Assembly (NCBI RefSeq): GCF_003399625.1
Contig: NZ_NBXA01000007.1
Coordinates: 310,001-374,000 of the forward strand
Length of the DNA stretch: 64,000 nt
Direction of reading: 5' to 3'
DNA from: Subtercola boreus
GTDB lineage: Bacteria; Actinomycetota; Actinomycetes; Actinomycetales; Microbacteriaceae
The number at the start of each line of letters is the position of its first letter. Position 1 is the first letter of the stretch. Of this stretch, positions 49,083 through 64,000 are shown in pieces. Position numbers and translations under genes: made by a program. The notes under the pieces are model-generated. The model had not been told where the DNA came from and made no database searches. It saw only the letters and a program-made list of their open reading frames with translations.

Positions 49083-49958
49083 GTGAGAGAATCGACTCAT
49101 GAGCGACTCCGCCCGGCGTGCTGCCGAGACCCCGAACTGCCCCTGCTGACCGTGCCGGCGATCCAGGTGTATGCCCTCGCGGGCATGGGCGAGGTGGCGG
49201 CGGGCGACGCGCTCGACGAGCTCATCGCTGTAGCGCTCGCGGGCCAGGGCCTCGACGTCGAAGACGGCGACATCCTCGTCGTGACCAGCAAAATCGTCTC
49301 GAAAGCCGAGGGTCGTTCCGTGCGGGCGGATGATCGGGAAGAGGCGATCACAGCCGAGACCGTTCGCGTGGTCGCCACTCGCGCCCATCCGGGTGGTGTG
49401 ACGCGCATCGTCGAGAACCGTCTCGGCATCGTGCAGGCCGCAGCGGGAGTGGATGCCAGCAACACGCCGTCCGGCACCGTGCTGCTGCTGCCGGTCGACC
49501 CGGATGCGTCGGCCAGGCAGCTCGCCACGGCCCTCCGCGCGCACCTCGGGGTTCGGTTGGGCATCCTCGTCTCCGACACCCTCGGGCGAGCGTGGCGCGA
49601 GGGCCAGACCGATGCCGCGATCGGTTCGGCCGGCGTGCTGGTCGTCGACGACCTGCGCGGGGGAGTCGACACCTTCGGGCAGAGGCTCGAGGTCACTCAG
49701 ATGGCCGTCGCCGACGAGATCGCCGCTGCCGCCGATCTGGTGAAAGGCAAGGCGAGCGGGATGCCCGTCGCGCTGGTACGCGGGTTGTCGCAGTTCGTCG
49801 TCGATTCGCTCGAGACGCCCGCGCGCGCGTTGACGCGCACCGGGCCGACGGACATGTTCCGGCTCGGAACCGACGAGGCGCTCGCCGAGGGCCGGGCGAC
49901 CGGTTATGCCGAGGGTTTCGCGGCCGGGCGCCTGGCCGGGCTGGCCGAGCGGCCGTGA
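49083..49958 (+). CDS. cofE: coenzyme F420-0:L-glutamate ligase
   Basis: 291-residue CofE that adds glutamates to F420-0. The family blocks are visible: [18 protein letters not shown] near residue 60, [14 protein letters not shown] near 103, [21 protein letters not shown] near 163 and K-G-K-A-S-G near 220. The domain proper begins at V-P-A-I-Q-V-Y (GTG at 49152). Its upstream part is odd: the best ATG (49099) is in another frame and stops after 16 codons, and one added C in the CCCC run at 49130-49133 would fuse it perfectly. cofC follows with overlap. Confidence 0.92.
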
Positions 49959-50611
49959 TGGAGTGGATCATCGTCGTGCCGGTGAAGGGATCGGATCTCT
50001 CGAAGACCCGGCTTGCGGATCTGCCTGCGTCGGTGCTCGAGCGGCGACGCCTGGCCCTGGCTTTTGCGCTCGACACCGTGGAGGCGCTTCGCGCCTCGTC
50101 CCGGGTCGCGGAGATCCTCGTCGTGACGGGCGACACCGAGTCGACCGCCGCGCTGTCATCGCTCGGCGCCCGCATCATGGCCGACCCCGGCGAGGGACTG
50201 AACGCGGCCATCTCGGTGGGGATCACCGAGGCGCGGCGCCGACGGCCTGAGGCCTTCGTCGCCGCAATCACGGCTGACCTGCCGTCGCTCACCACCGCGG
50301 ACCTCGACGACGCGCTGCACGCTGCCGCCGGTCATCCTGCATCGTTCGTGGCCGATCTGCAGGGTATCGGAACGACCACGATCGCGGCCCGGCCCGGTGT
50401 GCCTCTCGTGCCGCGGTTCGGCCAGGGATCTGCGGCCGCTCATCGGGCGGCCGGGCTGGTGCCGCTCGATCTGCCGCCGGCTTCGAGCCTCCGCCGTGAT
50501 GTGGATACCCCAGCTGACGTCGCACAGGAGGTGACGACTTTCGGTCGACACACCCGACAGGTCCTGGCCGCCGACGCGGAACACCTTCGGCGTTCCCTGG
50601 AACGAAGATGA
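49958..50611 (+). CDS. cofC: 2-phospho-L-lactate (or enolpyruvyl) guanylyltransferase
   Basis: 217-residue nucleotidyltransferase of F420 biosynthesis, making the activated GDP-phospholactate/enolpyruvate that CofD uses. It opens W-I-I-V-V-P-V-K-G-S-D-L-S-K-T-R-L, the usual GTP/substrate loop; V-V-T-G-D near residue 50, D-P-G-E-G-L-N-A-A-I near 70 and T-A-D-L-P-S-L near 103 follow, as does F-G-Q-G-S-A-A-A-H near 150. The ATG overlaps the cofE stop (TGATG), so the two are co-translated. The long frame upstream is antiphase to cofE. Confidence 0.93.
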   Translation: MEWIIVVPVKGSDLSKTRLADLPASVLERRRLALAFALDTVEALRASSRVAEILVVTGDTESTAALSSLGARIMADPGEGLNAAISVGITEARRRRPEAFVAAITADLPSLTTADLDDALHAAAGHPASFVADLQGIGTTTIAARPGVPLVPRFGQGSAAAHRAAGLVPLDLPPASSLRRDVDTPADVAQEVTTFGRHTRQVLAADAEHLRRSLERR

Positions 50612-51728: not shown

Positions 51729-52691
51729 ATGGCCGCCCGCGACTACGGGCATTTCGGCGTGACAGCCGACCCGGAGGCCTTCGGGCTCGTCACCTCCGTC
51801 GCCCTGACCTCGGCCGGGCCGATCACAGTCAGGCACGGCCGCCGTTCGGGCCGCGACGACGCGAGGGCGATCATCCTGCTGCACGGAGCGGCCGGCTCGT
51901 GGAGTACCTTCACGCCGCTCCTGTCTGCCGCAGACCTCGGGGCCACCGGCGGGGCATACGCCTCTTTCGAAGACCTGGTCATTCCCGATCTCGCGGGCTG
52001 GGGCGACTCCGCTCTCGCCACCAGGGCCGAAGACCGCAGCATCGAAGTCGTCGCCGCATCGGTGGCGGAGGTTGCCCGCTCCCTCGGCTACGACCGGTGG
52101 ATGATCGTGGGCCACTCCCTCGGCGGTTTCGTCGCCCTCGAACTCGCCGCCGCCGAGCAGACGGCCACCGAGCGTGTGCTTCTGGTCTCGCCGACGACGT
52201 TCGGCGTCGCGGCGGCCGTGCGCCAGCCTTTCCGGGAGCTCCGGAACCTGCCCGCCTATGTCGGCATGCTCGGGGTCATGCTCGTGCTTGCGAGGCTCGG
52301 CCGGTTCGGCACCCGATTCGTCGCTCTGATCGGGCCGACCCGGTTCTTCCGACGGTCGATGGGCCCGCTGTTCGCTCACCCCGGGCGGATCGCGCAGAGT
52401 GTGTACCGTGCGCTCGCCGCCGAGGCGCGGCCTCTGTCGTTCGTGCTTGCGTCGGCTTGTGCGGGCGAGTACGACGCACGGCGTTGGGCGGGCATCCGGT
52501 GCCCGGTTCGTTCGCTCCGCGGCAGCAGGGATGTCTTCGTCGCCGACGATGACCACGTTCGGCTGGCGGCGACGATCCCCGACTTCGTGGGCGGCATCCT
52601 CGACGACGCGGGCCACTTCGGTCAGATCGAGCGGCCTGTCGAGGTGCTCGAGCGGCTGTTCCCGGCCACCAGGGCATCGGCGGCGAGCTGA
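51729..52691 (+). CDS. alpha/beta hydrolase
   Basis: 320-residue serine hydrolase. The oxyanion block L-L-H-G-A-A-G-S-W near residue 50, nucleophile elbow G-H-S-L-G-G near 129 and terminal acid/His pair (R-G-S-R-D near 265, D-D-A-G-H-F near 295) are in order. The substrate is unknown. The start is uncertain: a GTG eight codons upstream (51705) is open and neither has a good Shine-Dalgarno. Its last 70 bases overlap the convergent cofD gene, an unusually deep tail-to-tail overlap. Confidence 0.82.
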   Translation: MAARDYGHFGVTADPEAFGLVTSVALTSAGPITVRHGRRSGRDDARAIILLHGAAGSWSTFTPLLSAADLGATGGAYASFEDLVIPDLAGWGDSALATRAEDRSIEVVAASVAEVARSLGYDRWMIVGHSLGGFVALELAAAEQTATERVLLVSPTTFGVAAAVRQPFRELRNLPAYVGMLGVMLVLARLGRFGTRFVALIGPTRFFRRSMGPLFAHPGRIAQSVYRALAAEARPLSFVLASACAGEYDARRWAGIRCPVRSLRGSRDVFVADDDHVRLAATIPDFVGGILDDAGHFGQIERPVEVLERLFPATRASAAS

Positions 52692-53728
52692 GCTGCCTGG
52701 TCGACCGTGTTCATCCAGAGCGGAACGACACTCACCCGCAGCCCGGCGGCCTCCATCTTCTCGGCGAGGCCGGCGTCCGATTCGTCGATCAGCCAGGCAT
52801 CGAGGATCCCGCCGTTCGCCCGGGAGCCGTAGTGCATCCCCACCGCGTCGGCAGCCACGGCCACGCCGATCGCGTCGAGGCAGGCCTTCGCCATTCCGCG
52901 CACCGGCGAGCCGGAGATGATGGGCGAGACGCCGACCACGGGCGCGGGTGTCGAGCGCAGGGCCTCACGGATGCCCGGCACCGGCAGGATCGTGCCGATC
53001 GAGACCACGGGGTTCGACGGGGCGACCAGCACGACATCCGCGCCGAGGATCGCCTGGACGACGCCCGGCGCCGCCGTGGCGGATTCGAGACCGTGCTGTT
53101 CGAAACGGAGGGCCGGCAGTGACGCGCGGTAGTGCACCCACCACTCCTCGAAGTGCATGGTGCGGGTGCCGCCTGTCGCGTCTGAATCGTCTGTCGCGTC
53201 TGCATGGTCTGTCGCATCGGGCCCGTCGACTCCGCCGCTGCCGTCGACTCCGCCTCTGCCGTCGGCAGCCACCACCACATGCGTCTCGACCGGCTGGTCG
53301 CTCATCGGGAGCAGCTTCACACCGAGATTCCAGCGCGCGGTGATCTGGTCGGTCACCTCGCTCAACGTCAGTCCCTCGCGAAGGAGATGGGAACGGGTGA
53401 TGTGGGTACCGAGGTCGAGGTCGCCCAGGGTGAACCACGGCCAGCCCACCCCGTAGGCGGTCAGTTCTGCGCTCACCCGCTCGGACTCGCCGAGCCGACC
53501 CCATCCGCGCACCTCATCGTTCGCGCCGCCCAGGGTGTACATGATCGAGTCGAGGTCGGGGCAGACCCGGAGCCCGGTCAGCCAGAGGTCGTCCCCGGTG
53601 TTCACGACCACCGTCACCTCGGCGGTCGTGCCGCCGCTGGCGTCGGGCAGGGTGTCACGCAGGTGCTGTCTCAGCCCCCGCAGGAACTTCGCTCCACCAA
53701 CGCCACCGGCCAAAACGGTTATCTTCAC
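52622..53728 (-). CDS. cofD: 2-phospho-L-lactate transferase (F420-0 or dehydro-F420-0 synthase)
   Basis: 368-residue CofD joining the CofC product to the deazaflavin Fo. It has the N-terminal V-L-A-G-G-V-G-G-A-K-F near residue 4, V-N-T-G-D-D near 42, D-L-D-S-I-M-Y-T-L near 57, P-M-S-D-Q-P-V-E-T near 140, A-P-S-N-P-V-V-S-I-G near 235 and S-P-I-I-S-G near 270. An insert of about 35 Gly/Asp/Ala residues (155-190) comes from 18-bp tandem repeats. It lies 3' to 3' with the hydrolase gene, 2 kb from cofC on the opposite strand rather than in the same operon. Confidence 0.95.
   Translation of the reverse strand: MKITVLAGGVGGAKFLRGLRQHLRDTLPDASGGTTAEVTVVVNTGDDLWLTGLRVCPDLDSIMYTLGGANDEVRGWGRLGESERVSAELTAYGVGWPWFTLGDLDLGTHITRSHLLREGLTLSEVTDQITARWNLGVKLLPMSDQPVETHVVVAADGRGGVDGSGGVDGPDATDHADATDDSDATGGTRTMHFEEWWVHYRASLPALRFEQHGLESATAAPGVVQAILGADVVLVAPSNPVVSIGTILPVPGIREALRSTPAPVVGVSPIISGSPVRGMAKACLDAIGVAVAADAVGMHYGSRANGGILDAWLIDESDAGLAEKMEAAGLRVSVVPLWMNTVDQAAQLAADALVAGNSRSSTSTGRSI
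53173..53261. repeat. 18-bp tandem repeats inside cofD
   Basis: Two to three copies of one 18-bp unit (53173-53208 plus a partial) are followed by two copies of another (53226-53261). They code on the minus strand for the G-G-V-D-G/D-A-T-D low-complexity loop. Confidence 0.88.
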
Positions 53729-53788: not shown

Positions 53789-54697
53789 TCAGCGCCAGCC
53801 GTCGAGCCGGGACGCGACCTCCTCGAGCACGGCCTCCGAGGCGGCATACACGCCCTCGGCCCGCGGCCAGTGCGTGATGACATCGGTGAAGCCGAGTGCG
53901 GATGCCCGCTCCACCATCCGCTCGAATGCCCCGACATTGGCCAACGACACCTGACCGCCCGAGTCGAGCGACAGGTACCGGTCGATCGTCGCCGGGTCCC
54001 GACCCTCCGCCTCCGCGGCGGAATCCAGCCGGTGCACCAGGGTCTCGACCGCGCTCCACCACTCTTCGCCAACCGCGCCATCTGCCCCCGTGGTGACCCA
54101 GCCCTGGCCGAACCGGCTCACGAGTGCCAGCCCTTTCGGCCCGTTTGCTGCCAGTACGAAGGGAACGCGGGGCTCCTGCGCCGGCCGGCCCACCATTCGC
54201 GCATCGCGGGCGGTGTACCACTCCCCGTCGAACGTGATTCCGGATGATGCGGCCGCCCCCGGGACATCCGGAGCCGCCTCGAACCGCAGCAGCCGGTCGG
54301 TCAGCTCGACGAACTCGGCGAAACGCTCGTGGCGCTGGCGGGGCGTGAGTTCCTGCTGGCCGAGCACGAAGGCGTCGAAGCCGGTTCCGCCGGAACCCAC
54401 CCCGAGCAGGAAGCGGCCACCTGAGATGTCGTCGAGGGTCGCCACCTCCTTCGCGAACGGAACGGGGTGCCGGAAGTTCGGTGACGACACGAAGGTTCCG
54501 AGCCGGATGCGCGAGGTGACGGTCGCGGCCGCCGTGAGGGTCGGCATCGTCGCCCCCCACGGTTCGCCGGCCAGCGATCGCCAGGAGAGGTGGTCGTAGG
54601 TCCACGCGTGGTCGAAACCGAGCTGTTCGGCGGCCTCCCATTTCGGGCGGGCCACGGCCCACGGGTCTTGGGGGAGGATGACGATTCCGAAGCGCAT
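53789..54697 (-). CDS. LLM class flavin/F420-dependent oxidoreductase
   Basis: 302-residue luciferase-like monooxygenase-fold protein. It opens M-R-F-G-I-V-I-L-P; the D-H-A-W-T-Y-D-H-L block near residue 30, R-L-G-T-F-V-S-S-P-N-F-R-H-P near 65 and G-R-F-L-L-G-V-G-S-G near 95 match the F420-dependent branch. The mates cofD, cofC and cofE in the same region make F420 use likely, though FMN cannot be ruled out. It is on the same strand as cofD, 60 bp upstream of it, so the two may share a transcript. The substrate is unknown. Confidence 0.88.
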   Translation of the reverse strand: MRFGIVILPQDPWAVARPKWEAAEQLGFDHAWTYDHLSWRSLAGEPWGATMPTLTAAATVTSRIRLGTFVSSPNFRHPVPFAKEVATLDDISGGRFLLGVGSGGTGFDAFVLGQQELTPRQRHERFAEFVELTDRLLRFEAAPDVPGAAASSGITFDGEWYTARDARMVGRPAQEPRVPFVLAANGPKGLALVSRFGQGWVTTGADGAVGEEWWSAVETLVHRLDSAAEAEGRDPATIDRYLSLDSGGQVSLANVGAFERMVERASALGFTDVITHWPRAEGVYAASEAVLEEVASRLDGWR

Positions 54698-54753: not shown

Positions 54754-56127
54754 TCAGACCGCCCGGAGCACCCCGGGAGGCGCCTCCCCGAGGGCGGCCG
54801 CGGCGAGCAGAGCGGCAACCTCCTGCACGTCGTTCTGCACGAGACCCGCCGTCACCCTGACGTGCGCGCGCTGGCCGCCCCCGGGATCCGTCGACGACTG
54901 GAACGAGGTGCCCGCAGCCACTCGGATCCCGCTCGCGGCCAGCGACACCATGGCTGCCTTCTCGTCGCGCACCGGCAGCCAGAGGTTGATGCCGTCAGCC
55001 GATGCCACAGTGAGCCCGTGGCTCCCGAGTGCCGCAGCGAGAGCCTGCTGGCGCGCCCGGTAGGTGTCGCGTGCCCGGGCGACCTGCGCCGCCGACTCGG
55101 GAGCTGTGAGCAACTCGAACAGGATCACCTGCAGCATCCGCGAGGTCCAGCCAGGCCCGAGCATTCGGCGCGCAACGATACGGTCGATGAGCGCAGACGG
55201 CCCCGCGAGGGCTCCGATCCGCAGGTCGGGGCCGTGGGATTTCGCATAGCTCCGGATGTGCAGCACCCGGTGCGGCAGCCACGAGCCGAGGCTGAGCGCC
55301 GGTGCAGAACTGATTTCGGCCGAGTGGTCGTCCTCGATGATCACCGGGTCTGTGAGGTGCGAGTGCGCCCGCAGCACCCGTACGAGTTCCTCGGCGCGCT
55401 TCGCCGTCATCGATGCGCCGGTGGGATTGTGGGCCCGCGGCTGCAGGATGATCGCGGCCGGGTTGGTGGCGAGGGCCCGCGCCAGGGCTTCCGGCCGCAT
55501 GCCGTGTTCGTCGATGGCTACGGGTACCCGCTCCGCCCCGAACTGTTCGAGGAGGTCGAAGAACGGCGGGAAGGAGGGGTCTTCGACGAGCACGCGGTCG
55601 CCGTAGCGCACCACCATCTCGAGCGAGCGGGAGACCGCATCGAGTGCGCCGTCGAGAATCGTCAGGCTTTCAGGTGAGTAGGGCCAGGATGCCCGGAGCT
55701 GGCGTTCGAGTTCTGGCAGCACCCGCTGGGTGAGGTAGCTCGACGTGTCGGCCCGGGCGGGCACGCGGGCAAGTGCCAGGCCGAGGGAGGGGAGGAGGGC
55801 CGGATCGGGGGTTCCGGAGGAGAGGTCGAGGCGGGCCTCGACATGGGTGCCGGCGAGTTCGGCGAAGTGGGCGGGCATCCAGGTCGTGCCGGCCTTCAGC
55901 ACGAAGCTGCCGGCGCGGCCCCGGGAGGTGATGAGGCCGACCCCGGCGAGGGCCTGCCAGGCGCTCGAGACGGTCGCCGGGCTCACCCCGAGGGCGCGCG
56001 CGAGGTCCCGCACGGTGGGCAGCCGGTCGCCGGAGGCGATGCCGCCCGACCGGATCAGTCGGGACACCGCCGCGGCGATGGCCTCGGGCGTCCTGTTCTC
56101 CACAGCCTCGACGATCTGGTCGATCAT
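54754..56127 (-). CDS. MocR/GntR-type regulator with aminotransferase domain
   Basis: 457-residue fusion. Residues 12-80 hold a GntR winged HTH (S-G-G-I-A-S-G-D-R-L-P-T-V-R-D-L-A, then L-G-V-S-P-A-T-V-S-S-A-W). Residues 110-457 form a PLP aminotransferase I fold with N-P-T-G-A-S near residue 240, D-D-H near 270 and the PLP lysine in R-S-Y-A-K-S-H-G-P near 300. MocR regulators usually sense PLP or amino compounds. It is divergent from the pyrimidine/hydantoin operon, so it is the likely regulator of that operon, perhaps sensing a beta-amino acid. The ATG has AGAGGTG upstream. Confidence 0.9.
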   Translation of the reverse strand: MIDQIVEAVENRTPEAIAAAVSRLIRSGGIASGDRLPTVRDLARALGVSPATVSSAWQALAGVGLITSRGRAGSFVLKAGTTWMPAHFAELAGTHVEARLDLSSGTPDPALLPSLGLALARVPARADTSSYLTQRVLPELERQLRASWPYSPESLTILDGALDAVSRSLEMVVRYGDRVLVEDPSFPPFFDLLEQFGAERVPVAIDEHGMRPEALARALATNPAAIILQPRAHNPTGASMTAKRAEELVRVLRAHSHLTDPVIIEDDHSAEISSAPALSLGSWLPHRVLHIRSYAKSHGPDLRIGALAGPSALIDRIVARRMLGPGWTSRMLQVILFELLTAPESAAQVARARDTYRARQQALAAALGSHGLTVASADGINLWLPVRDEKAAMVSLAASGIRVAAGTSFQSSTDPGGGQRAHVRVTAGLVQNDVQEVAALLAAAALGEAPPGVLRAV

Positions 56128-56136
56128 CCACACCTC

Positions 56137-56230
56137 TTGACTTATTTTTACGCCTGCGTCACAGTCTGAAACACGAGAGAAATGTTCAGAACCAATAATA
56201 ACAAAACGGGCTTCGAGAGGAATTGCACCA
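56137..56230 (+). promoter_or_regulatory. divergent promoter region between the MocR gene and the catabolic operon
   Basis: The 103-bp gap is much richer in A/T than its neighbours. TTGACT (56137-56142) and CACAGT (56160-56165) are spaced by 17 bases and could drive the rightward operon; an AATAATAACAAAA tract lies near 56195. AGAGGAA precedes the first start. No clear palindrome was found. Confidence 0.45.
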
Positions 56231-57079
56231 ATGACGGTTGTACGCGCAGCGATCACTCAGACGACCTGGACAGGCGACAAGGAGTCGATGATCCAGAAGC
56301 ACGAGCAGTTCGCCAGGGATGCGGCGGCTGACGGCGCCCAGGTCATCTGTTTCCAGGAGCTGTTCTACGGCCCCTACTTCGGAATCACCGAAGACAAGAA
56401 GTACTACCGCTACGCCGAACCTGCCGACGGGCCGATCGTGCAGCGGTTCGCCGCGCTCGCCAAGGAACTGAACCTCGTCATCATCCTGCCGATCTACGAA
56501 GAGGACATCACGGGTGTGTACTACAACACCGCGGTGATCGTCGAATCCGACGGCACGATCCTCGGCAAGTACCGCAAACACCACATCCCTCACGTCGACC
56601 GGTTCTTCGAGAAGTTCTACTTCCGCCCGGGCAACATGGGCTACCCCGTCTTTGACACGTCTGTCGGCAAGATCGGCCTGTACATCTGCTACGACCGGCA
56701 CTTCCCCGAGGGCTGGCGGGAGCTCGGGTTGAACGGTGCGCACATGGTCTTCAATCCGAACGCCACGAAGCCGGGGCTGTCGAACCGGCTCTGGGAGGTC
56801 GAGGGGCCGGCCGCTGCGGTCGCGAACGGCTACTTCGTGATGCAGCCCAACCGGGTGGGCCGCGAAGACAACGAGTACGGCGAACTCGCCGTCGACTTCT
56901 ACGGCACCAGCCAGGTGATCGACCCGCGCGGGAACTTCGTGGGCGAACGCGGATCCGGAACCGACGAAGAGATCCTGATCCGCGACCTCGAGCTCGACCT
57001 GGTGAGGGAGATGCGCGACGACTGGCAGTTCTACCGCGACCGCCGGCCTGAGTCGTACACCTCGATCCCCAAGCCGTAG
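56231..57079 (+). CDS. beta-ureidopropionase / carbon-nitrogen hydrolase
   Basis: 282-residue nitrilase-superfamily enzyme. The catalytic Glu-Lys-Cys triad is in C-F-Q-E-L-F near residue 42, K-Y-R-K-H-H-I-P near 115 and Y-I-C-Y-D-R-H-F-P-E near 155. The second Tyr/Phe-rich loop (F-F-E-K-F-Y-F-R-P-G) is typical of N-carbamoyl-beta-alanine amidohydrolases. Together with the dihydropyrimidinase downstream it completes hydrolytic steps two and three of reductive pyrimidine catabolism (release of CO2, NH3 and a beta-amino acid). It is the first gene of the operon. Confidence 0.92.
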   Translation: MTVVRAAITQTTWTGDKESMIQKHEQFARDAAADGAQVICFQELFYGPYFGITEDKKYYRYAEPADGPIVQRFAALAKELNLVIILPIYEEDITGVYYNTAVIVESDGTILGKYRKHHIPHVDRFFEKFYFRPGNMGYPVFDTSVGKIGLYICYDRHFPEGWRELGLNGAHMVFNPNATKPGLSNRLWEVEGPAAAVANGYFVMQPNRVGREDNEYGELAVDFYGTSQVIDPRGNFVGERGSGTDEEILIRDLELDLVREMRDDWQFYRDRRPESYTSIPKP

Positions 57080-57106
57080 GTTGTCCGAAACGAGGGAGTT
57101 GAACCG

Positions 57107-58546
57107 ATGAAGACACTCATTTCCAACGGCACCGTGGTGAACGCGACAGGTGTCGCCACCGCCGACGTGCTGATCGACGGCGAGACGATCGCGGCCGTGC
57201 TGGCACCCGGATCGGCCCTGCTCGGGTTCGACGTCGCGGCCAATGTCGACCGGGTCATCGATGCGCGGGGCAAGTACGTCATCCCGGGCGGCATCGACGC
57301 GCACACGCACATGGAGATGCCGTTCGGCGGCACCTTTGCGAGCGACACGTTCGAGACCGGCACCCGGGCGGCGGCGTGGGGCGGCACCACCTCGATCGTC
57401 GACTTCGTCGTGCAGTACGCGGGCGAGAACATCCTCGACCAGTACCAGGCGTGGCATCAGAAGGCCGCGGGCAACTGCGCCATCGACTACGGTTTCCACC
57501 AGATCCTCTCGGATGTGCAGGACTCCTCGCTCACGGCGATGGATGAACTGCTGAACGAGGGCGTCAGCTCTTTCAAGCTCTTCATGGCCTACAAGGGCGT
57601 CTTTCTGAGCGACGACGGCCAGATCGTCAAGGCGATGCAGCGTGCGAGTGAGAACGGTGCGCTGATGATGATGCACGCCGAGAACGGCAGCGTCATCGAC
57701 CTGCTCGTGCAGCAGGCTGTGGCCCGCGGCGACACGTCTCCGTACTTCCACGGCACCACGCGTCCCTGGCAGGCCGAGGAGGAGGCGACCCACCGGGCCA
57801 TCATGCTCGCGAACCTCACCGGCGCGCCGCTCTACATTGTGCACGTGAGCGCCAAGCAGGCCGTCGAACAGATCGCCATCGCGCGCGACCGCGGCCAGAA
57901 CGTGTTCGCCGAGACCTGCCCGCAGTACCTCTACCTCTCGCTCGAAGAGCAGCTGGGTGCATCCAGCGCCGAATGGGGCGACTTCGAGGGTGCGAAGTGG
58001 GTCTGTTCCACTCCGCTGCGCTCGCGGGCGGAAGGCCACCAGCACCACATGTGGCAGGGGCTCCGCACGAACGACCTGCAGGTCATCTCCACCGACCACT
58101 GCCCGTTCTGCATGAAGGGGCAGAAGGACATGGGGGTCGGCGACTTCTCGAAGATCCCGAACGGCATCGGTTCGGTCGAACACCGCATGGACCTGATCTA
58201 CCAGGGTGTCGTGATGGGCGAGATCAGCCTGCCGCGCTGGGTCGAGCTCACGTCGACCACGCCCGCCCGCATGTTCGGCATGTACGGCAAGAAGGGTGTC
58301 ATCCAGCCCGGAGCCGACGGAGACGTCGTGATCTACGACCCGAACGGCCACACCTCGATCGGCGTCGGTGAGGGCCGCTCGCACCACATGAACATGGACT
58401 ACTCGGCCTGGGAGGGCTACGAGATCGACGGCCACGTCGACACCGTCATCTCCCGCGGCAAGGTCATCGTCGACGACAACGAATACCTCGGCACCAAGGG
58501 TGACGGCAAGTACTTCAAGCGCGGCCTCTCGCAGTATCTGATCTAG
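57107..58546 (+). CDS. dihydropyrimidinase / D-hydantoinase
   Basis: 479-residue amidohydrolase. The metal ligands are visible: D-A-H-T-H-M near residue 65, the carbamylated Lys in S-F-K-L-F-M-A-Y-K-G near 155, H-A-E near 187, H-V-S-A near 245 and D-H-C-P-F near 325. The substrate-binding Tyr in the A-Y-K-G loop and the G-I-G-S-V-E-H-R block are kept. It opens dihydrouracil or dihydrothymine, or hydantoin analogues, to N-carbamoyl-beta-amino acids, the substrate of the preceding enzyme. The gene lies 27 bases after it. Confidence 0.95.
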   Translation: MKTLISNGTVVNATGVATADVLIDGETIAAVLAPGSALLGFDVAANVDRVIDARGKYVIPGGIDAHTHMEMPFGGTFASDTFETGTRAAAWGGTTSIVDFVVQYAGENILDQYQAWHQKAAGNCAIDYGFHQILSDVQDSSLTAMDELLNEGVSSFKLFMAYKGVFLSDDGQIVKAMQRASENGALMMMHAENGSVIDLLVQQAVARGDTSPYFHGTTRPWQAEEEATHRAIMLANLTGAPLYIVHVSAKQAVEQIAIARDRGQNVFAETCPQYLYLSLEEQLGASSAEWGDFEGAKWVCSTPLRSRAEGHQHHMWQGLRTNDLQVISTDHCPFCMKGQKDMGVGDFSKIPNGIGSVEHRMDLIYQGVVMGEISLPRWVELTSTTPARMFGMYGKKGVIQPGADGDVVIYDPNGHTSIGVGEGRSHHMNMDYSAWEGYEIDGHVDTVISRGKVIVDDNEYLGTKGDGKYFKRGLSQYLI

Positions 58547-58622
58547 CCACTTTCTGCGCAGCCGGTCCCCGCCCGGCTGCACATACGTCACTCAGCCCCA
58601 CCTCCTCGACAGAAAGCACAAC

Positions 58623-59639
58623 ATGGAATTCGGAGCAGTTCTCCAGACCCACCCGCCGGCGTCGCGAACGCTGGCGCTCGCGAAACTCGCCGAGCAGCAC
58701 GGCTTCGACTACGCGTGGACGTTCGACTCCCACCTGCTCTGGCAGGAGCCGTACGTCATCTACAGCCAGATCCTCAACGAGACCCACCGCATCAAGGTCG
58801 GGCCGATGGTCACGAACCCCGCGACCCGCGACTGGACGGTCACGGCATCCATCTTCGCGACCCTGAACGAGATGTACGGCAACCGCACGATCTGCGGCAT
58901 CGGCCGGGGCGACTCCGCAGTGCGCACGACGAACCGTGCCCCCACCACGTTGAAGACCCTGCGGGAGTCGATCCACGTGATCCGGGAGCTCGCGAACAGC
59001 CGCGCTGTGGAGTACAACGGGGCGACGGTGCAGTTCCCCTGGAGCCGCGGCTCCGAGCTCGAGGTCTGGGTCGCCGCCTACGGCCCGCTCGCCCTCAAGC
59101 TCACCGGTGAGGTCGGCGACGGTTTCATCCTGCAACTCGCCGACGTCGACATCGCCGAATGGATGATCAAGACCGTCCGGAATGCGGCCGAGAAGGCCGG
59201 TCGTGACCCGATGTCCATCAAGTTCTGCGTGGCCGCACCGATGTACATCGGCGACGACTGGGAGCACATGCGCGACCAGTGCCGCTGGTTCGGAGGCATG
59301 GTGGGCAACCACGTGGCAGACATCGTGTCGAAGTACGGTACCGACTCGAACGTCCCGAAGGCGCTCACCGACTACATCGAGGCGCGCCAGGGCTACGACT
59401 ACAACCAGCACGGCCTCGCCGGCAACGAGCACGCGAACTTCGTTCCCGACGAGATCGTCGACCGCTTCTGCCTGCTCGGCACGGCCGACCAGCACATCGA
59501 GAAGCTGAAGGCGCTGAAGGAGCTCGGCGTCGACCAGTTCGCGGGTTACCTCCAGCACGACAACAAAGAGGAGACCCTGCGGGTCTACGGCGAAGCCGTC
59601 ATCCCCGCGATGCGAGAGCACATCACGGCGACCGCATGA
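58623..59639 (+). CDS. F420-dependent LLM oxidoreductase, TIGR03842 type
   Basis: 338-residue luciferase-like oxidoreductase matching the pattern I recall for TIGR03842, a family repeatedly found beside dihydropyrimidinase. It has M-E-F-G-A-V-L-Q-T near the start, D-Y-A-W-T-F-D-S-H-L-L-W near residue 28, V-G-P-M-V-T-N-P near 58, G-I-G-R-G-D-S near 98 and E-V-W-V-A-A-Y-G-P near 140, typical of F420-binding TIM barrels. It sits 76 bp after dihydropyrimidinase and overlaps the next gene (ATGA). The reaction is not established; reduction or oxidation of a pyrimidine ring is the obvious candidate. Confidence 0.85.
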   Translation: MEFGAVLQTHPPASRTLALAKLAEQHGFDYAWTFDSHLLWQEPYVIYSQILNETHRIKVGPMVTNPATRDWTVTASIFATLNEMYGNRTICGIGRGDSAVRTTNRAPTTLKTLRESIHVIRELANSRAVEYNGATVQFPWSRGSELEVWVAAYGPLALKLTGEVGDGFILQLADVDIAEWMIKTVRNAAEKAGRDPMSIKFCVAAPMYIGDDWEHMRDQCRWFGGMVGNHVADIVSKYGTDSNVPKALTDYIEARQGYDYNQHGLAGNEHANFVPDEIVDRFCLLGTADQHIEKLKALKELGVDQFAGYLQHDNKEETLRVYGEAVIPAMREHITATA

Positions 59640-60535
59640 CGATGACAACGGGGGCGGGCCTGGCGCGCCGTCGCTGGAGCGCCCTGCTCTGGGGCCTGCT
59701 CGGCGTCGTGCTGCTCGCGGTGCTCTGGGAGGGTTACAAGGCGGTCGGGCCGCCGACCGGCGTTGTGCTGTTCGACACGAGCATCCTGCCGAAGACCGAC
59801 GACCGCTCCATGCCGCACCTGGTCGACATGCTGTCCCGGGCGATCGAGCCGGTGAACACGTCCGCAGGATCCCCGCCGGTCTGGGTGGCGGTCATCGGCG
59901 CGGCGCTCACCAGCCTCGGCGTCGCGGCGGTGGGCTGGGCGATCGGCTCGGTGGTCGGCTTCCTCATTGCTCTCCTCATGCAGCGGCTGCAGGTCACCGA
60001 GCGTGCCGTGTTGCCCTGGCTCATCCTCAGCCAGACCGTGCCGCTCATCGCCCTCGCGCCGGTGATCGTCGCCTGGGGTGGCAAGATCCAGATCGGCGCC
60101 TTCTCCTGGGACCGGTGGATGTCCGTGGCCGTCATCGCCTCGTACCTGGCGTTCTTCCCGGTGGCCGTCGGTGCACTCCGAGGGCTGCAGTCGCCCGACA
60201 CGATCCATGTCGAACTGATGCGCAGCTACAACGCCGGCTGGTTCCGGACGCTCCTGAAACTCCGGTTGCCGGCCAGCGTGCCCTACCTGCTTCCCGCTCT
60301 CCGGCTCGGAGCGGCGAGTGCCATCGTCGGCACGGTGGTGGCCGAGGTCTCGACGGGGTACAAGGGCGGAATCGGCCGCATGATCATCGAATTCGCGCAG
60401 TCGGGTACGTCCGATCCCGCCAAGGCCTACGCACCGATCGCCGGGGCCGTCGTGCTCGGGCTCGTCTCGGCGGGCATCGTGGCACTGATCGGACTGACTC
60501 TCAGACGTTTCAACAGACAGGAAGCGGCATCGTGA
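59636..60535 (+). CDS. ABC transporter permease, nitrate/thiamine-precursor type
   Basis: 299-residue inner-membrane permease of the SsuC/NrtB/ThiX class. About six hydrophobic helices are present, with the EAA-like loop L-M-R-S-Y-N-A-G-W-F-R-T-L-L-K-L-R-L-P-A near residue 200. Between the first and second helices it carries an external insert of about 50 residues (G-P-P-T-G-V to S-P-P-V-W-V) that SsuC-type permeases lack. The ATG overlaps the stop of the LLM gene; an ATG two codons later is possible. It pairs with the second permease downstream. Confidence 0.9.
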   Translation: MTMTTGAGLARRRWSALLWGLLGVVLLAVLWEGYKAVGPPTGVVLFDTSILPKTDDRSMPHLVDMLSRAIEPVNTSAGSPPVWVAVIGAALTSLGVAAVGWAIGSVVGFLIALLMQRLQVTERAVLPWLILSQTVPLIALAPVIVAWGGKIQIGAFSWDRWMSVAVIASYLAFFPVAVGALRGLQSPDTIHVELMRSYNAGWFRTLLKLRLPASVPYLLPALRLGAASAIVGTVVAEVSTGYKGGIGRMIIEFAQSGTSDPAKAYAPIAGAVVLGLVSAGIVALIGLTLRRFNRQEAAS

Positions 60536-61377
60536 CCGACACTGCCCGCACCACCACCCCCGCACCCTCCGAGGTGCTCCCGGCCATCTCCGTGCGTGCG
60601 GCCGGCAAGATCTTCACGGTGGCGAAGGGTGCCGAGGTGCAGGCGCTCACCGGCATCGACCTGACGGTCGCCCCGGGCGAGTTCGTCTCCCTCATCGGCC
60701 CCTCCGGCTGCGGCAAGAGCACCCTGTTGCGGCTCATCGCCGATCTCGACTCCGCCACCAGCGGCGAGATCCTCGTGTTCGGCAAGACCGCCCGGCAGGC
60801 CAGGCTCGACCAGGAGTACGGCATCGCGTTCCAGAGCGCGGGGCTCCTGCCGTGGCGATCCGTGCAGGCGAACATCGAGCTGCCGCTCGAACTGCACGGC
60901 GTGGGCAAGGCCGAGCGCGCCGCCCGAGCCGAGGAACTCATCGAACTCGTCGGGCTCACAGACTTCAGGAGCCGCTTCCCCGACCAGCTCTCGGGCGGAA
61001 TGCAGCAGCGAGTGGCCATTGCCCGCTCGCTCGCCGAGAGGCCGAAACTGCTGCTGATGGACGAACCGTTCGGTGCCCTCGACGAGATGACACGCGAGCG
61101 AATGCAGCAGGAGCTCGTGCGCATCTGCTCCGAGACGGGCGCCGCTGTGGTCTTCGTCACGCACTCCATCCCCGAGGCCGTGTTCCTCTCCGACCGGGTC
61201 GTCGTGATGTCACCGCGACCGGGCCGCATCGTCGACATCGTGTCGGTGGATCTCGGTGCGGGTACCTCGCGCAGCGACTCCCTCCGCGAGAACCCGGCGT
61301 TCTTCGCCGGGGTGACCGCCGTGCGGGAAGCGCTCCACGGGTCCCCCGTCGCCCCCCTCGGCGCGGATCTCCGATGA
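60532..61377 (+). CDS. ABC transporter ATP-binding protein, SsuB/TauB type
   Basis: 281-residue ATPase. Walker A G-P-S-G-C-G-K-S-T near residue 59, Q-loop F-Q-S-A-G-L-L-P-W (typical of the nitrate/taurine/pyrimidine subfamily), signature L-S-G-G-M-Q-Q-R, Walker B L-L-L-M-D-E-P-F-G-A-L-D and switch His in V-T-H-S-I-P-E-A are complete. The GTG start overlaps the permease stop and has AGGAAG upstream. It lies between the two permease genes, which suggests a heterodimeric transporter. Confidence 0.94.
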   Translation: MTDTARTTTPAPSEVLPAISVRAAGKIFTVAKGAEVQALTGIDLTVAPGEFVSLIGPSGCGKSTLLRLIADLDSATSGEILVFGKTARQARLDQEYGIAFQSAGLLPWRSVQANIELPLELHGVGKAERAARAEELIELVGLTDFRSRFPDQLSGGMQQRVAIARSLAERPKLLLMDEPFGALDEMTRERMQQELVRICSETGAAVVFVTHSIPEAVFLSDRVVVMSPRPGRIVDIVSVDLGAGTSRSDSLRENPAFFAGVTAVREALHGSPVAPLGADLR

Positions 61378-62207
61378 CGACCACCGTCTCCGCCGCCGCC
61401 ATGGCCACCGATCCGTCCGCCGGCGGAGCGGGCGCCGGCCGAGGGGCCGCAGGGCGATCCGTCGCGCGCTCGGTGCTTCCCCCGGTCGTGCTCGGCGTGG
61501 CCTTCCTGCTCGTCTGGCAGCTCGCCGTGGTCGCCTTCGACATCAAGCCGTACCTGCTGCCGAGCCCGACCGACATCGTCGGCCAGATCGTCATCGTCTT
61601 CCCGTTGCTCTGGTCCTCGCTGCTCGCAACCGGCCTGAATGCGCTGATCGGGCTCGTGCTCGGCGGTGTCCTTGCCGTCGTTCTCGCCCTTCTCGCCTCG
61701 CGGGTCACGATCTTCGACCGGATGATCGTGCCGATCGTCGCGGCCGTCGCCGTCGTACCCATCGTCGCCCTCGCGCCCATCCTGAACACGATGTTCGGAT
61801 CGACCTCCGACACGCCCCGGCGGGTCGTCGTGCTGATCGTCGTCTTCGCGCCGATCTTCATCAACACGCTCCGTGGTCTCCGCCAGGTGCGGCCGGTGCA
61901 CCGTGACCTGATGCGGGCCTATGCCGCCTCGAACTGGCAGCTCACCCGCACGGTCACGCTCCCGGGGGCCGTGCCGTTCATCTTCACGGGGCTCCGCATC
62001 GCGGCACCGCTCGGCGTCATCTCCGCCATCGTCGCGGAGTACTTCGGCGGGCTGCAGAACGGTCTCGGCTCCCGCATCACCTCCGCCGCGGCGAACAGCG
62101 CCTACCCCCGGGCCTGGGCCTACGTGTTCGGCGCGATCATCCTGGGCCTCGTCTTCTACGGCGTCACTCTGCTGCTCGAACGGCTCGCGAGCCGCCGCAG
62201 GGCCTGA
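61374..62207 (+). CDS. ABC transporter permease, second subunit
   Basis: 277-residue permease of the same class. A Gly/Ala-rich leader of about 28 residues is followed by six hydrophobic segments; the EAA-like loop reads L-M-R-A-Y-A-A-S-N-W-Q-L-T-R-T-V-T-L-P-G near residue 180. The ATG overlaps the ATPase stop. Compared with the first permease it lacks the external insert, so the two subunits form unequal halves. The binding protein follows 91 bases downstream. Confidence 0.92.
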   Translation: MTTTVSAAAMATDPSAGGAGAGRGAAGRSVARSVLPPVVLGVAFLLVWQLAVVAFDIKPYLLPSPTDIVGQIVIVFPLLWSSLLATGLNALIGLVLGGVLAVVLALLASRVTIFDRMIVPIVAAVAVVPIVALAPILNTMFGSTSDTPRRVVVLIVVFAPIFINTLRGLRQVRPVHRDLMRAYAASNWQLTRTVTLPGAVPFIFTGLRIAAPLGVISAIVAEYFGGLQNGLGSRITSAAANSAYPRAWAYVFGAIILGLVFYGVTLLLERLASRRRA

Positions 62208-62298
62208 GAACGTTTAACCGCACCACCGTTCCACCTGCACCACCACCGCACCACCTTCACCGCACCACCCGTCCAGCACACAGATCAACGGAGGAAAG

Positions 62299-63453
62299 AT
62301 GAAGCACAGCAGACGCATCACCCTCGGCGCGGCAGCCATCGCCGCGTCGGCAGCCCTCATCCTGAGCGGATGCTCGAGCTCGTCGGGTACCGGCGACACC
62401 GCCAGTTCGAGTGGGGGAGCCCTGACCCCCGTGAAGCTGCAGTTGCAGTGGTTCACGCAGGCGCAGTTCGCGGGTTACTACGCCGCCCTCGACCAGGGCT
62501 ACTTCGCCGACGAGGGCCTCGACGTCACCATCGTCGAAGGCGGAACGGACATCGTTCCGCAGACCCAGCTGGCAGACGGCGCCGTGGACTACGCCGTGGC
62601 CTGGGTTCCGAAGGCGCTCGCATCGCGCGAGCAGGGCGCCGGCATCACGGATGTCGCCCAGATCCTGCAGAAGTCGGGCACCCTGCAGGTGTCGATGGCC
62701 GACAAGAACATCACGACCGCCGCCGATCTCAAGGGCAAGACCGTCGGCAACTGGGGCTACGGCAACGAGTTCGAGATGTTCGCCGGCATCACCAAGGCGG
62801 GTCTCGACCCCGCGACAGACGTCAAGCTCGTACAGCAGGCGTTCGACGAGTCGGGCCTCCTCGACGGATCGATCGACGCCGCGCAGGCCGAGACCTACAA
62901 CGAGTACGCGCAGATCCTCGAGACCATGAACCCGGCGACCGGCAAGCTGTACCAGCCGAGCGACCTCAACGTGATCGACTGGAACACCGAGGGCACCGCA
63001 ATGCTCCAGGACGCGATCTGGGCGAACACCGAGAAGCTCAACAGCGACCAGGCCTACCAGGACCAGACGGTGAAGTTCCTCACGGCTGCGCTCAAAGGCT
63101 GGATCTACGCCCGCGACAACCCCGAGAAGGCTTCAGCCATCGTCGTGGCCAAGGGGTCGCAGCTCGGCGCGAGCCACCAGCTCTGGCAGACCAATGAGAT
63201 CAACAAGCTCATCTGGCCGTCGGCAGCCGGTGTGGGAATCATCGACGACGCCTCCTGGAAGCAGACCGTCGACGTCGCCATGACGGCCAAGAACCTCGAA
63301 GGCACGACCGTCATCACGAAGGCGCCCGACTCCGACGCGTACACGAACACCTACGTGCAGAAGGCGCTCGACGCGCTGAAGGCCGAGGGCGTCGACGTCA
63401 CGGGAACGTCCTACAAGCCCATCACCGTCACCCTCACCGAGGGCGGCAAGTAA
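62299..63453 (+). CDS. ABC substrate-binding lipoprotein, NMT1/THI5-like
   Basis: 384-residue binding protein. The lipoprotein signal ends in L-I-L-S-G-C near residue 24. The NMT1/THI5 fold starts V-K-L-Q-L-Q-W-F-T-Q-A-Q-F-A-G-Y-Y-A-A near residue 45, a motif shared with proteins that bind pyrimidine-like ligands (ThiY, RibY-like). D-L-K-G-K-T-V-G-N-W-G-Y-G near 148 is the hinge region. GGAGGAAAG precedes the ATG. The operon context predicts a pyrimidine, dihydropyrimidine or hydantoin ligand, but that is inference. Confidence 0.92.
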   Translation: MKHSRRITLGAAAIAASAALILSGCSSSSGTGDTASSSGGALTPVKLQLQWFTQAQFAGYYAALDQGYFADEGLDVTIVEGGTDIVPQTQLADGAVDYAVAWVPKALASREQGAGITDVAQILQKSGTLQVSMADKNITTAADLKGKTVGNWGYGNEFEMFAGITKAGLDPATDVKLVQQAFDESGLLDGSIDAAQAETYNEYAQILETMNPATGKLYQPSDLNVIDWNTEGTAMLQDAIWANTEKLNSDQAYQDQTVKFLTAALKGWIYARDNPEKASAIVVAKGSQLGASHQLWQTNEINKLIWPSAAGVGIIDDASWKQTVDVAMTAKNLEGTTVITKAPDSDAYTNTYVQKALDALKAEGVDVTGTSYKPITVTLTEGGK

Positions 63454-63551
63454 TAGTCCGTACGACCCCGGGCTGGCCATCCGTCGTCGCCGCCACATGC
63501 GGCAGGCACCGGATGCCCAGCCCACCACTCGACACGAAGAAGGCACCACTC

Positions 63552-64000
63552 ATGGATCTCAACCCCGAAGACGGAAAGCTCGCCTACGAACTCGACCGCG
63601 CCCACGTCTTCCACTCCTGGTCGGCCCAGGCCGCGCTGAAGCCGATGGTCATCGCCGGCGGCCTCGGCAGCACCGTCTGGGACTTCGACGGCAACCGCTA
63701 TCTCGATTTCTCGAGCCAGCTCATCAATGTGAACATCGGTCACCAGCACCCGGCCGTGACCGCGGCCATCCGCGCGCAGACCGAGGTTCTCACCACCGTC
63801 GCCCCGGCAGCGGCGAACCTCGCGAGGGGCAGAGCCGCCCAGCGCATCCTCGAACGGGCCGGCCACGGCTTCAGCAAGGTCTTCTTCACCAACGGCGGCG
63901 CGGACGCCAACGAGAACGCCTTCCGCATGGCCAGGCTCTACACCGGGCGCGACAAGATCCTCTCGGCCTACCGCTCCTACCACGGCAACACCGGGGCGGC
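63552..64000 (+). CDS. class III aminotransferase (omega-amino acid:pyruvate type), 3' end missing
   Basis: Partial gene leaving at the right edge; 149 residues are present with no stop. The N-terminal half of a class III PLP aminotransferase is visible: W-D-F-D-G-N-R-Y-L-D-F-S-S-Q near residue 41, N-I-G-H-Q-H-P-A-V near 60, F-F-T-N-G-G-A-D-A-N-E-N-A near 113 and S-Y-H-G-N-T near 143. AAGAAGG precedes the ATG. In this operon it would take the amino group off beta-alanine or beta-aminoisobutyrate, the end product of pyrimidine breakdown, giving malonate or methylmalonate semialdehyde. The PLP lysine lies outside the window. Confidence 0.88.
   Translation, partial: MDLNPEDGKLAYELDRAHVFHSWSAQAALKPMVIAGGLGSTVWDFDGNRYLDFSSQLINVNIGHQHPAVTAAIRAQTEVLTTVAPAAANLARGRAAQRILERAGHGFSKVFFTNGGADANENAFRMARLYTGRDKILSAYRSYHGNTGA

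Follow-up and report, generated by a model that had tools for sequence, protein, structure and literature searches.

The operon and its genes

The DNA analysed here (the window) is a stretch of 64,000 nucleotides from Subtercola boreus, positions 310001-374000 of contig C7 in an actinobacterial assembly of 4.12 Mb that is 98.7% complete. The window ends within a single operon, beginning at 56231, in which a luciferase-like monooxygenase (LLM) of family TIGR03842 stands among genes of pyrimidine breakdown; this LLM, the subject of the analysis, is a candidate for the enzyme that reduces the pyrimidine ring. The closest named relative is Subtercola boreus P27479, whose LLM is 99% identical. The operon consists of the following genes, where ABC stands for ATP-binding cassette.

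56231..57079, plus strand: carbon-nitrogen (CN) hydrolase, most likely beta-ureidopropionase (PF00795)
57107..58546, plus strand: dihydropyrimidinase, D-hydantoinase family (TIGR02033)
58623..59639, plus strand: TIGR03842 LLM oxidoreductase of 338 residues, proposed F420H2-dependent uracil/thymine reductase
59636..60535, plus strand: ABC permease 1 (PF00528), its ATG overlapping the LLM stop (ATGA)
60532..61377, plus strand: ABC ATPase (PF00005)
61374..62207, plus strand: ABC permease 2 (PF00528)
62299..63453, plus strand: binding protein, NMT1/THI5 type (PF09084)
63513..64000, plus strand: class III aminotransferase (PF00202), cut by the window end and ending at L002:2889, 889 bases beyond it

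Comparison with family models and solved structures showed that the dihydropyrimidinase scores 544 bits against TIGR02033 (cut-off 393), with the dihydropyrimidinase 3sfw as its best solved relative, and that the LLM scores 594.9 bits against TIGR03842 (cut-off 295.45). The best solved relatives of the CN-hydrolase are 2vhh (CG3027-PA), the N-carbamoylputrescine amidohydrolases 5h8i and 5h8k, and the beta-ureidopropionases 8pt4 and 6ftq; against the N-carbamoylputrescine amidase model it scores 238 bits, below the cut-off of 410. The binding protein is related to 4nmy, an unnamed ABC binding protein, and next to the formyl-aminopyrimidine-binding protein 3ix1 and THI5, and the aminotransferase is nearest to the taurine:2-oxoglutarate aminotransferase 6jix. 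Dihydropyrimidinase, ureidopropionase and aminotransferase, which together define a Pyd cluster, all stand here. With substrates assigned by similarity, the operon covers reductive pyrimidine breakdown in its hydrolytic and transamination steps but contains no recognised ring reductase.

Every gene that an earlier note on this DNA had described was found in its place by the family models, including the TIGR03842 LLM in the ring-reduction slot between dihydropyrimidinase and importer. The note also took the LLM to be translationally coupled to the transporter, which is plausible given the ATGA overlap between LLM and permease; overlaps follow at the permease/ATPase (GTGA) and ATPase/permease (ATGA) junctions. 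A LysR-like gene, named by eye, comes after the aminotransferase, beyond the window.

Distribution of the LLM and of known ring reductases

Dihydropyrimidine dehydrogenases are described, in the part of PMC7332683 that was available, as having a dihydroorotate-dehydrogenase-like flavin mononucleotide (FMN) domain and 4Fe-4S clusters. The NAD(P)H- or ferredoxin-dependent enzymes PydA, PreTA and PydAc occupy the same operon position as the LLM and have the same partners (dihydropyrimidinase, either type of ureidopropionase, NCS1 or ABC importer, aminotransferase), but they are not homologous to it: the only Pfam match of the LLM is PF00296, and the DHO_dh domain (PF01180) that marks PydA and PreTA is missing.

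A search of the source genome gave no PreA match at E 1e-60, so no preA/preT pair is present; such a pair elsewhere in the genome was half of what the earlier note had named as refuting its hypothesis. PreA was searched for genome-wide and PreT in the LLM loci by tblastn, where none was found. The whole assembly contains a single PF01180 protein. A phylum-wide draw of 296 Actinomycetota genomes was then surveyed (an E. coli control for PreA gave a positive signal). Genome searches were cut at E 1e-60 for PreA, 1e-15 for PF01180 and 1e-20 for Cof proteins, thresholds that weaker relatives would escape. The results showed that TIGR03842 is present over its cut-off in 62 genomes, dihydropyrimidinase over its cut-off in 89 and PreA in two, and that PreA and TIGR03842 occur together in none of the 296. 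Dihydropyrimidinase was found in 61 of the 62 LLM-positive genomes compared with 28 of the 234 LLM-negative ones (Fisher p 4e-40, which overstates independence because the genomes are related), a co-occurrence far beyond chance. Of the 62 genomes, 49 have the two genes within 6.5 kb of each other, oriented alike in 46 and divergent in three. In the one LLM genome without dihydropyrimidinase (G194), the LLM adjoins an aminotransferase, a Zn hydrolase and an NCS1 symporter; since its contig starts 5.8 kb ahead of the LLM, an assembly gap may explain the missing gene.

PF01180 proteins number one in 55 of the LLM genomes, none in one and two in six. A PreA, PydA or PydAc hidden elsewhere was rejected, given the lack of any PreA match at the threshold used and a PF01180 count that does not exceed one in 56 of the 62. 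The pattern that the earlier note had proposed to look for, absence of preA/preT where the LLM gene is present, was borne out: PreA was found in none of the 62 LLM genomes, and tblastn found neither PreA nor PreT in any of 64 phylum loci or of 80 named loci, the latter being the best 80 of 566 candidates and hence close relatives only.

The 28 genomes with dihydropyrimidinase and without the LLM were considered as counter-examples and rejected as such, since most of their loci fall outside the LLM-linked dihydropyrimidinase clades. The dihydropyrimidinase tree, which was built quickly, has long branches that the program flagged and includes just eight of the 80 named loci, took 27 of the 28 (L209 dropped out), of which one is a PreA locus (L193), 22 lie outside the LLM-linked clades and four inside (L190, L192, L200 and L213). 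At L190 and L200 the contig ends less than 1 kb from the dihydropyrimidinase, and L192 and L213 are not accounted for by contig ends. Pfam scans of open reading frames (ORFs) beside the dihydropyrimidinase, chosen by length, gave no family for four ORFs of L192, possibly taken from the wrong strand, and no LLM or DHO_dh for six ORFs of L213. Separately, three of the 28 carry a related LLM under the cut-off (92-105 bits) on the same contig as a dihydropyrimidinase-family gene and about 1, 8 and 11 kb from it (L212, G083 C142; L194, G032 C103; L196, G179 C156), perhaps representing a sister system.

Neighbouring genes were labelled by tblastn matches to reference proteins at E 1e-12 (1e-6 for the comparison with PreTA loci); the aminotransferase label 'AT3', at about 30% identity, need not mean orthology. 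Four arrangements were seen: CN-hydrolase, dihydropyrimidinase, LLM, ABC, aminotransferase in Microbacteriaceae; CN-hydrolase, aminotransferase, dihydropyrimidinase, LLM, NCS1 in most of family f5; dihydropyrimidinase, aminotransferase, Zn-type hydrolase, NCS1, LLM in family f18; and, in family f46, LLM and Zn-type hydrolase divergent from dihydropyrimidinase and ABC. Among the 43 of the 64 fetched phylum loci that are full (at least 8 kb on both sides), a ureidopropionase is present in 41 (28 CN-hydrolases, 13 Zn), dihydropyrimidinase in 36, aminotransferase in 31, NCS1 in 17, an ABC binding protein in 15, and PreA or PreT, by tblastn, in none. The LLM is therefore accompanied by two unrelated ureidopropionase types and two unrelated importer types. 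Compared with the window, family f18 has an LLM that is 59-66% identical, a dihydropyrimidinase that is 43-46% identical and an unrelated ureidopropionase, suggesting that partner genes have been exchanged around a constant LLM. The dihydropyrimidinase tree requires at least five changes of the label 'LLM-linked' on starred branches.

Eight plasmid loci from 62 plasmid records with PreA, together with L193, were read for comparison. The Mycetohabitans locus has PreTA without the remaining pathway genes, and the other seven plasmid loci have dihydropyrimidinase and a Zn or CN hydrolase. A homologue of the window operon's ABC importer is present in four PreA loci (binding protein 35-37% identical, permeases 33-43%) and an NCS1 symporter in two; the Thalassospira aminotransferase is 70% identical to one carried with the LLM on Leisingera plasmids. 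Judged by gene content, PreTA operons are the same gene set, with PreTA standing where the LLM stands.

Fold of the LLM and supply of F420

By profile and by fold the LLM is closest to the F420-dependent methylenetetrahydromethanopterin reductase (Mer), and its nearest sequences and folds are F420 enzymes, ahead of FMN monooxygenases, suggesting that its cofactor is F420 rather than FMN. The residues lining the Mer pterin site are retained. However, an alignment of the window sequence with 73 of 160 extracted relatives showed that the position of the Mer catalytic Glu6 is V, T or C in all 74 LLMs, and the LLM scores 143.6 bits against the Mer model TIGR03555 (cut-off 348.7); membership of Mer was rejected on both grounds. 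RutA, an FMN-dependent uracil monooxygenase whose structure 6sgl binds uracil, shares the LLM fold. Membership of RutA was rejected because the nearest folds are F420 enzymes and because the 25 NCBIfam models listed for the LLM, out of 26 and reaching down to 20.3 bits, do not include the RutA model TIGR03612 (cut-off 498.3).

Upstream of the operon, the window contains F420 biosynthesis genes, a regulator and a second LLM.

49083..49958, plus strand: cofE, F420-0:L-glutamate ligase (TIGR01916, 222.9 bits, cut-off 180.65)
49955..50611, plus strand: cofC-like, 2-phospholactate guanylyltransferase, named by eye from the ORF list and used as tblastn reference
52622..53728, minus strand: cofD, 2-phospho-L-lactate transferase (TIGR01819, 322.6 bits over joined pieces, cut-off 257)
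53789-54697, minus strand: second LLM, flanked by cofD and the regulator (scores highest with TIGR03560, at 123 bits, which is under cut-off)
54757..56139, minus strand: MocR-type regulator (GntR plus aminotransferase; PF00392 and PF00155), divergent

Of the 80 named loci, 54 have a homologue of the MocR-type regulator, which is divergent in the neighbourhoods drawn, and just ten have a homologue of the second LLM. About 4 kb after the operon, L002 6672-13293 looks by eye like a purine/ureide cluster (class V aminotransferase, M20-type amidohydrolase, RpiR regulator, MobA-like and UraD-like genes); three of its ORFs were scanned, and only the aminotransferase matched models, under cut-off.

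The cofE, cofC and cofD genes, which the earlier note did not mention, sit 3-7 kb upstream of the operon, and in addition to CofE and CofD the source genome has CofG and, at 304.8 bits and so under its cut-off of 374, a CofH match on contig C19. CofD was matched in 59 of the 62 LLM genomes of the survey compared with seven of 18 others tested. Among 120 Microbacteriaceae, the LLM is present in 57, CofD in 55 and both in 47; CofD lies within 20 kb of the LLM in 42 of these 47 and on another contig in five. CofH was matched in just 23 of 46 LLM- and CofD-positive genomes tested, and the 47th (G302) has CofG. With ten further LLM-positive Microbacteriaceae that match none of CofD, CofG and CofH, this points to a stepwise loss of F420 synthesis in genomes that retain the LLM and suggests that F0 or F420 is taken up from neighbours. 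No npdG match was found at E 1e-15 in the cofactor survey.

The proteobacterial evidence comes from plasmids: ten of Leisingera (two species) and one of Paracoccus carry TIGR03842. Two Leisingera plasmids were read and have npdG, cofE, cofC, cofD, cofH and cofG followed by the TIGR03842 LLM, with a facing operon of pntA, pntB, aminotransferase, Zn hydrolase, hydA, NCS1 and DUF1330; PreTA is not annotated in the stretches read. A complete F420 pathway, F420 reductase, transhydrogenase, LLM and dihydropyrimidinase thus form one self-contained module, suggesting that electrons travel from NADH by way of the transhydrogenase and NADPH:F420 reductase to the LLM. The HydA of L. caerulea falls in a clade with five PreA-linked enzymes (support 100 in the SH-aLRT branch test), within which it groups with Pseudorhodobacter and Thalassospira (99), and the LLM of this species is separated from the actinobacterial LLMs by a long branch. 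The nesting of HydA among PreA-linked enzymes suggests that PreTA was exchanged for the LLM around closely related dihydropyrimidinases. The Paracoccus alcaliphilus plasmid shares the cof genes, npdG and LLM and also carries an ABC importer.

Several further plasmid observations were made. The DUF1330 gene is a neighbour of the F420/LLM module in Paracoccus, and in Leisingera it closes the facing operon (L090 6083-6373, L096 5287-5580). A Variovorax sp. PBL-E5 plasmid from linuron-contaminated soil (L094 3414-12909) carries a sister LLM (TIGR03842 203 bits, under cut-off) with amidohydrolase, CN-hydrolase, RidA, npdG and cofG, H, D and C as neighbours, perhaps another F420 module for a different cyclic amide. 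On a plasmid of the haloarchaeon Natrinema (L093 2254-7002), a related LLM (165.6 bits, under cut-off) lies directly behind hydantoinase A/B-type oxoprolinase genes. Matches to cofD occur on 12 Sinorhizobium plasmids (among H137-H149), none of which is among the TIGR03842 matches.

Predicted function and alternatives

From the gene identities, the co-occurrence, the missing PreA match and the fold, which are directly established, the LLM is very probably a uracil/thymine reductase that uses F420H2 and takes the place of dihydropyrimidine dehydrogenase without being homologous to it; its substrate, direction, hydride chemistry and cofactor are predicted. The operon would import uracil or thymine and break it down by the reductive pathway. 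The LLM would bind F420H2 at the end of its barrel. The deazaflavin would donate a hydride straight to C6 of the pyrimidine, C5 would be protonated, and the product would be dihydrouracil or dihydrothymine. Next, dihydropyrimidinase would open the ring, the CN-hydrolase release CO2 and ammonia, and the aminotransferase deaminate beta-alanine; in Leisingera, reducing power would come from NADPH via NpdG and be supplied by the transhydrogenase of the same cluster. The earlier note's hypothesis of an F420-dependent dihydropyrimidine dehydrogenase gains from the slot pattern in 62 genomes and on plasmids and from the F420-type fold, the activity itself remaining a prediction. Its inclusion of hydantoins fared less well: on chemical grounds a hydantoin ring needs no reductase ahead of dihydropyrimidinase, and uracil or thymine is therefore the better guess. 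The slot argument, drawn from one operon, is supported as a phylum-wide and cross-phylum pattern of likely non-orthologous replacement.

It is improbable that the LLM instead acts downstream, as an F420-linked reductase or dehydrogenase of the (methyl)malonic semialdehyde formed by the aminotransferase, with the ring reduced by something unrecognised. Known reductive pathways need a semialdehyde enzyme, and the PreTA clusters of Cytobacillus and Thalassospira include a semialdehyde dehydrogenase whereas this operon has none; the relatives Fgd and Adf act on sugar phosphate and alcohols. However, in the full loci the LLM is more faithful to the ring-opening genes (ureidopropionase in 41 of 43) than to the aminotransferase (31 of 43), and the 62 LLM genomes would be left without any recognised ring reductase.

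Still less probable is a substrate of another kind, an unsaturated cyclic amide or ureide such as a modified pyrimidine, an imidazolone, the thiamine pyrimidine or a xenobiotic, reduced by the LLM before dihydropyrimidinase acts. Dihydropyrimidinases are promiscuous, and the relatives of the binding protein include the formyl-aminopyrimidine-binding protein and THI5. A putative F420-dependent 'yanthine' reductase of the luciferase family has been proposed in a reductive urate pathway of Chloroflexota (available part of PMC12507026). Against this, PreTA operons have the same partners as the LLM, NCS1 nucleobase symporters and the beta-ureidopropionase types among them, and a Leisingera HydA nests among PreA-linked enzymes. 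Least probable of all is that the LLM is a RutA-type FMN monooxygenase opening uracil oxidatively, with dihydropyrimidinase serving other substrates: the model scores, nearest sequences and folds point elsewhere, F420 genes are linked to the LLM in Microbacteriaceae and on plasmids, and RutA-type chemistry would make dihydropyrimidinase useless, yet it is kept in 61 of 62 genomes.

Several observations weigh against an F420H2-dependent uracil/thymine reductase. Five of the 62 genomes have the LLM separated from dihydropyrimidinase by 12 kb to 3.4 Mb of the same contig, seven have the two genes on different contigs, and six LLM genomes encode a second PF01180 protein. In G266 a 35 kb contig bears ureidopropionase and dihydropyrimidinase as a pair but no LLM. 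Next to the dihydropyrimidinase of the PreA locus L193 stands another gene of the LLM family, which is 33% like the second LLM of the window. The Leisingera evidence is confined to plasmids, and the chromosomes may also carry PreTA; the part of the Paracoccus alcaliphilus plasmid that was read, 64 kb between 120 and 184 kb, has no annotated hydA. Ten of the 57 LLM-positive Microbacteriaceae, two of them single-contig, have no CofD, CofG or CofH match, so that the cofactor would be scavenged or another one, which may be the case in these ten, would be used. Their operons (e.g. loci L222-L231) are intact, with cofE nearby in three. Their LLMs preserve each of the 58 invariant positions, and comparison with ten LLMs from CofD-positive genomes gave 83-91% identity to the nearest.

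A literature search found no paper naming TIGR03842 and no reaction for the family, in agreement with the earlier note, and no paper combining 'F420-dependent' with dihydropyrimidinase. The closest published statement found is the Chloroflexota 'yanthine' reductase. Likened by description rather than by sequence, and as far as the available part of PMC12507026 goes, that enzyme is also a luciferase-family F420 enzyme that replaces an iron-sulfur flavoprotein and reduces a uracil-like ring before a hydrolase, but it differs from the LLM in substrate, phylum and partners; the same part holds no proposal of uracil as a substrate of an F420 enzyme.

If the prediction is right, the LLM would be an independent solution to ring reduction that uses 338 residues instead of a multi-cofactor complex. 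The family, for which the literature search found no reaction, would gain one, and the rare coenzyme F420 would take on a new routine role in many soil bacteria. More tentatively, and with some doubt, TIGR03842 might constitute a fourth, non-homologous kind of dihydropyrimidine dehydrogenase without flavin or iron-sulfur clusters, and the F420 of Microbacteriaceae might be largely a cofactor of uracil catabolism that many members no longer make, some keeping only the late steps (CofE, CofC and CofD) and importing F0 and others importing F420, with the deazaflavin traded like a vitamin.

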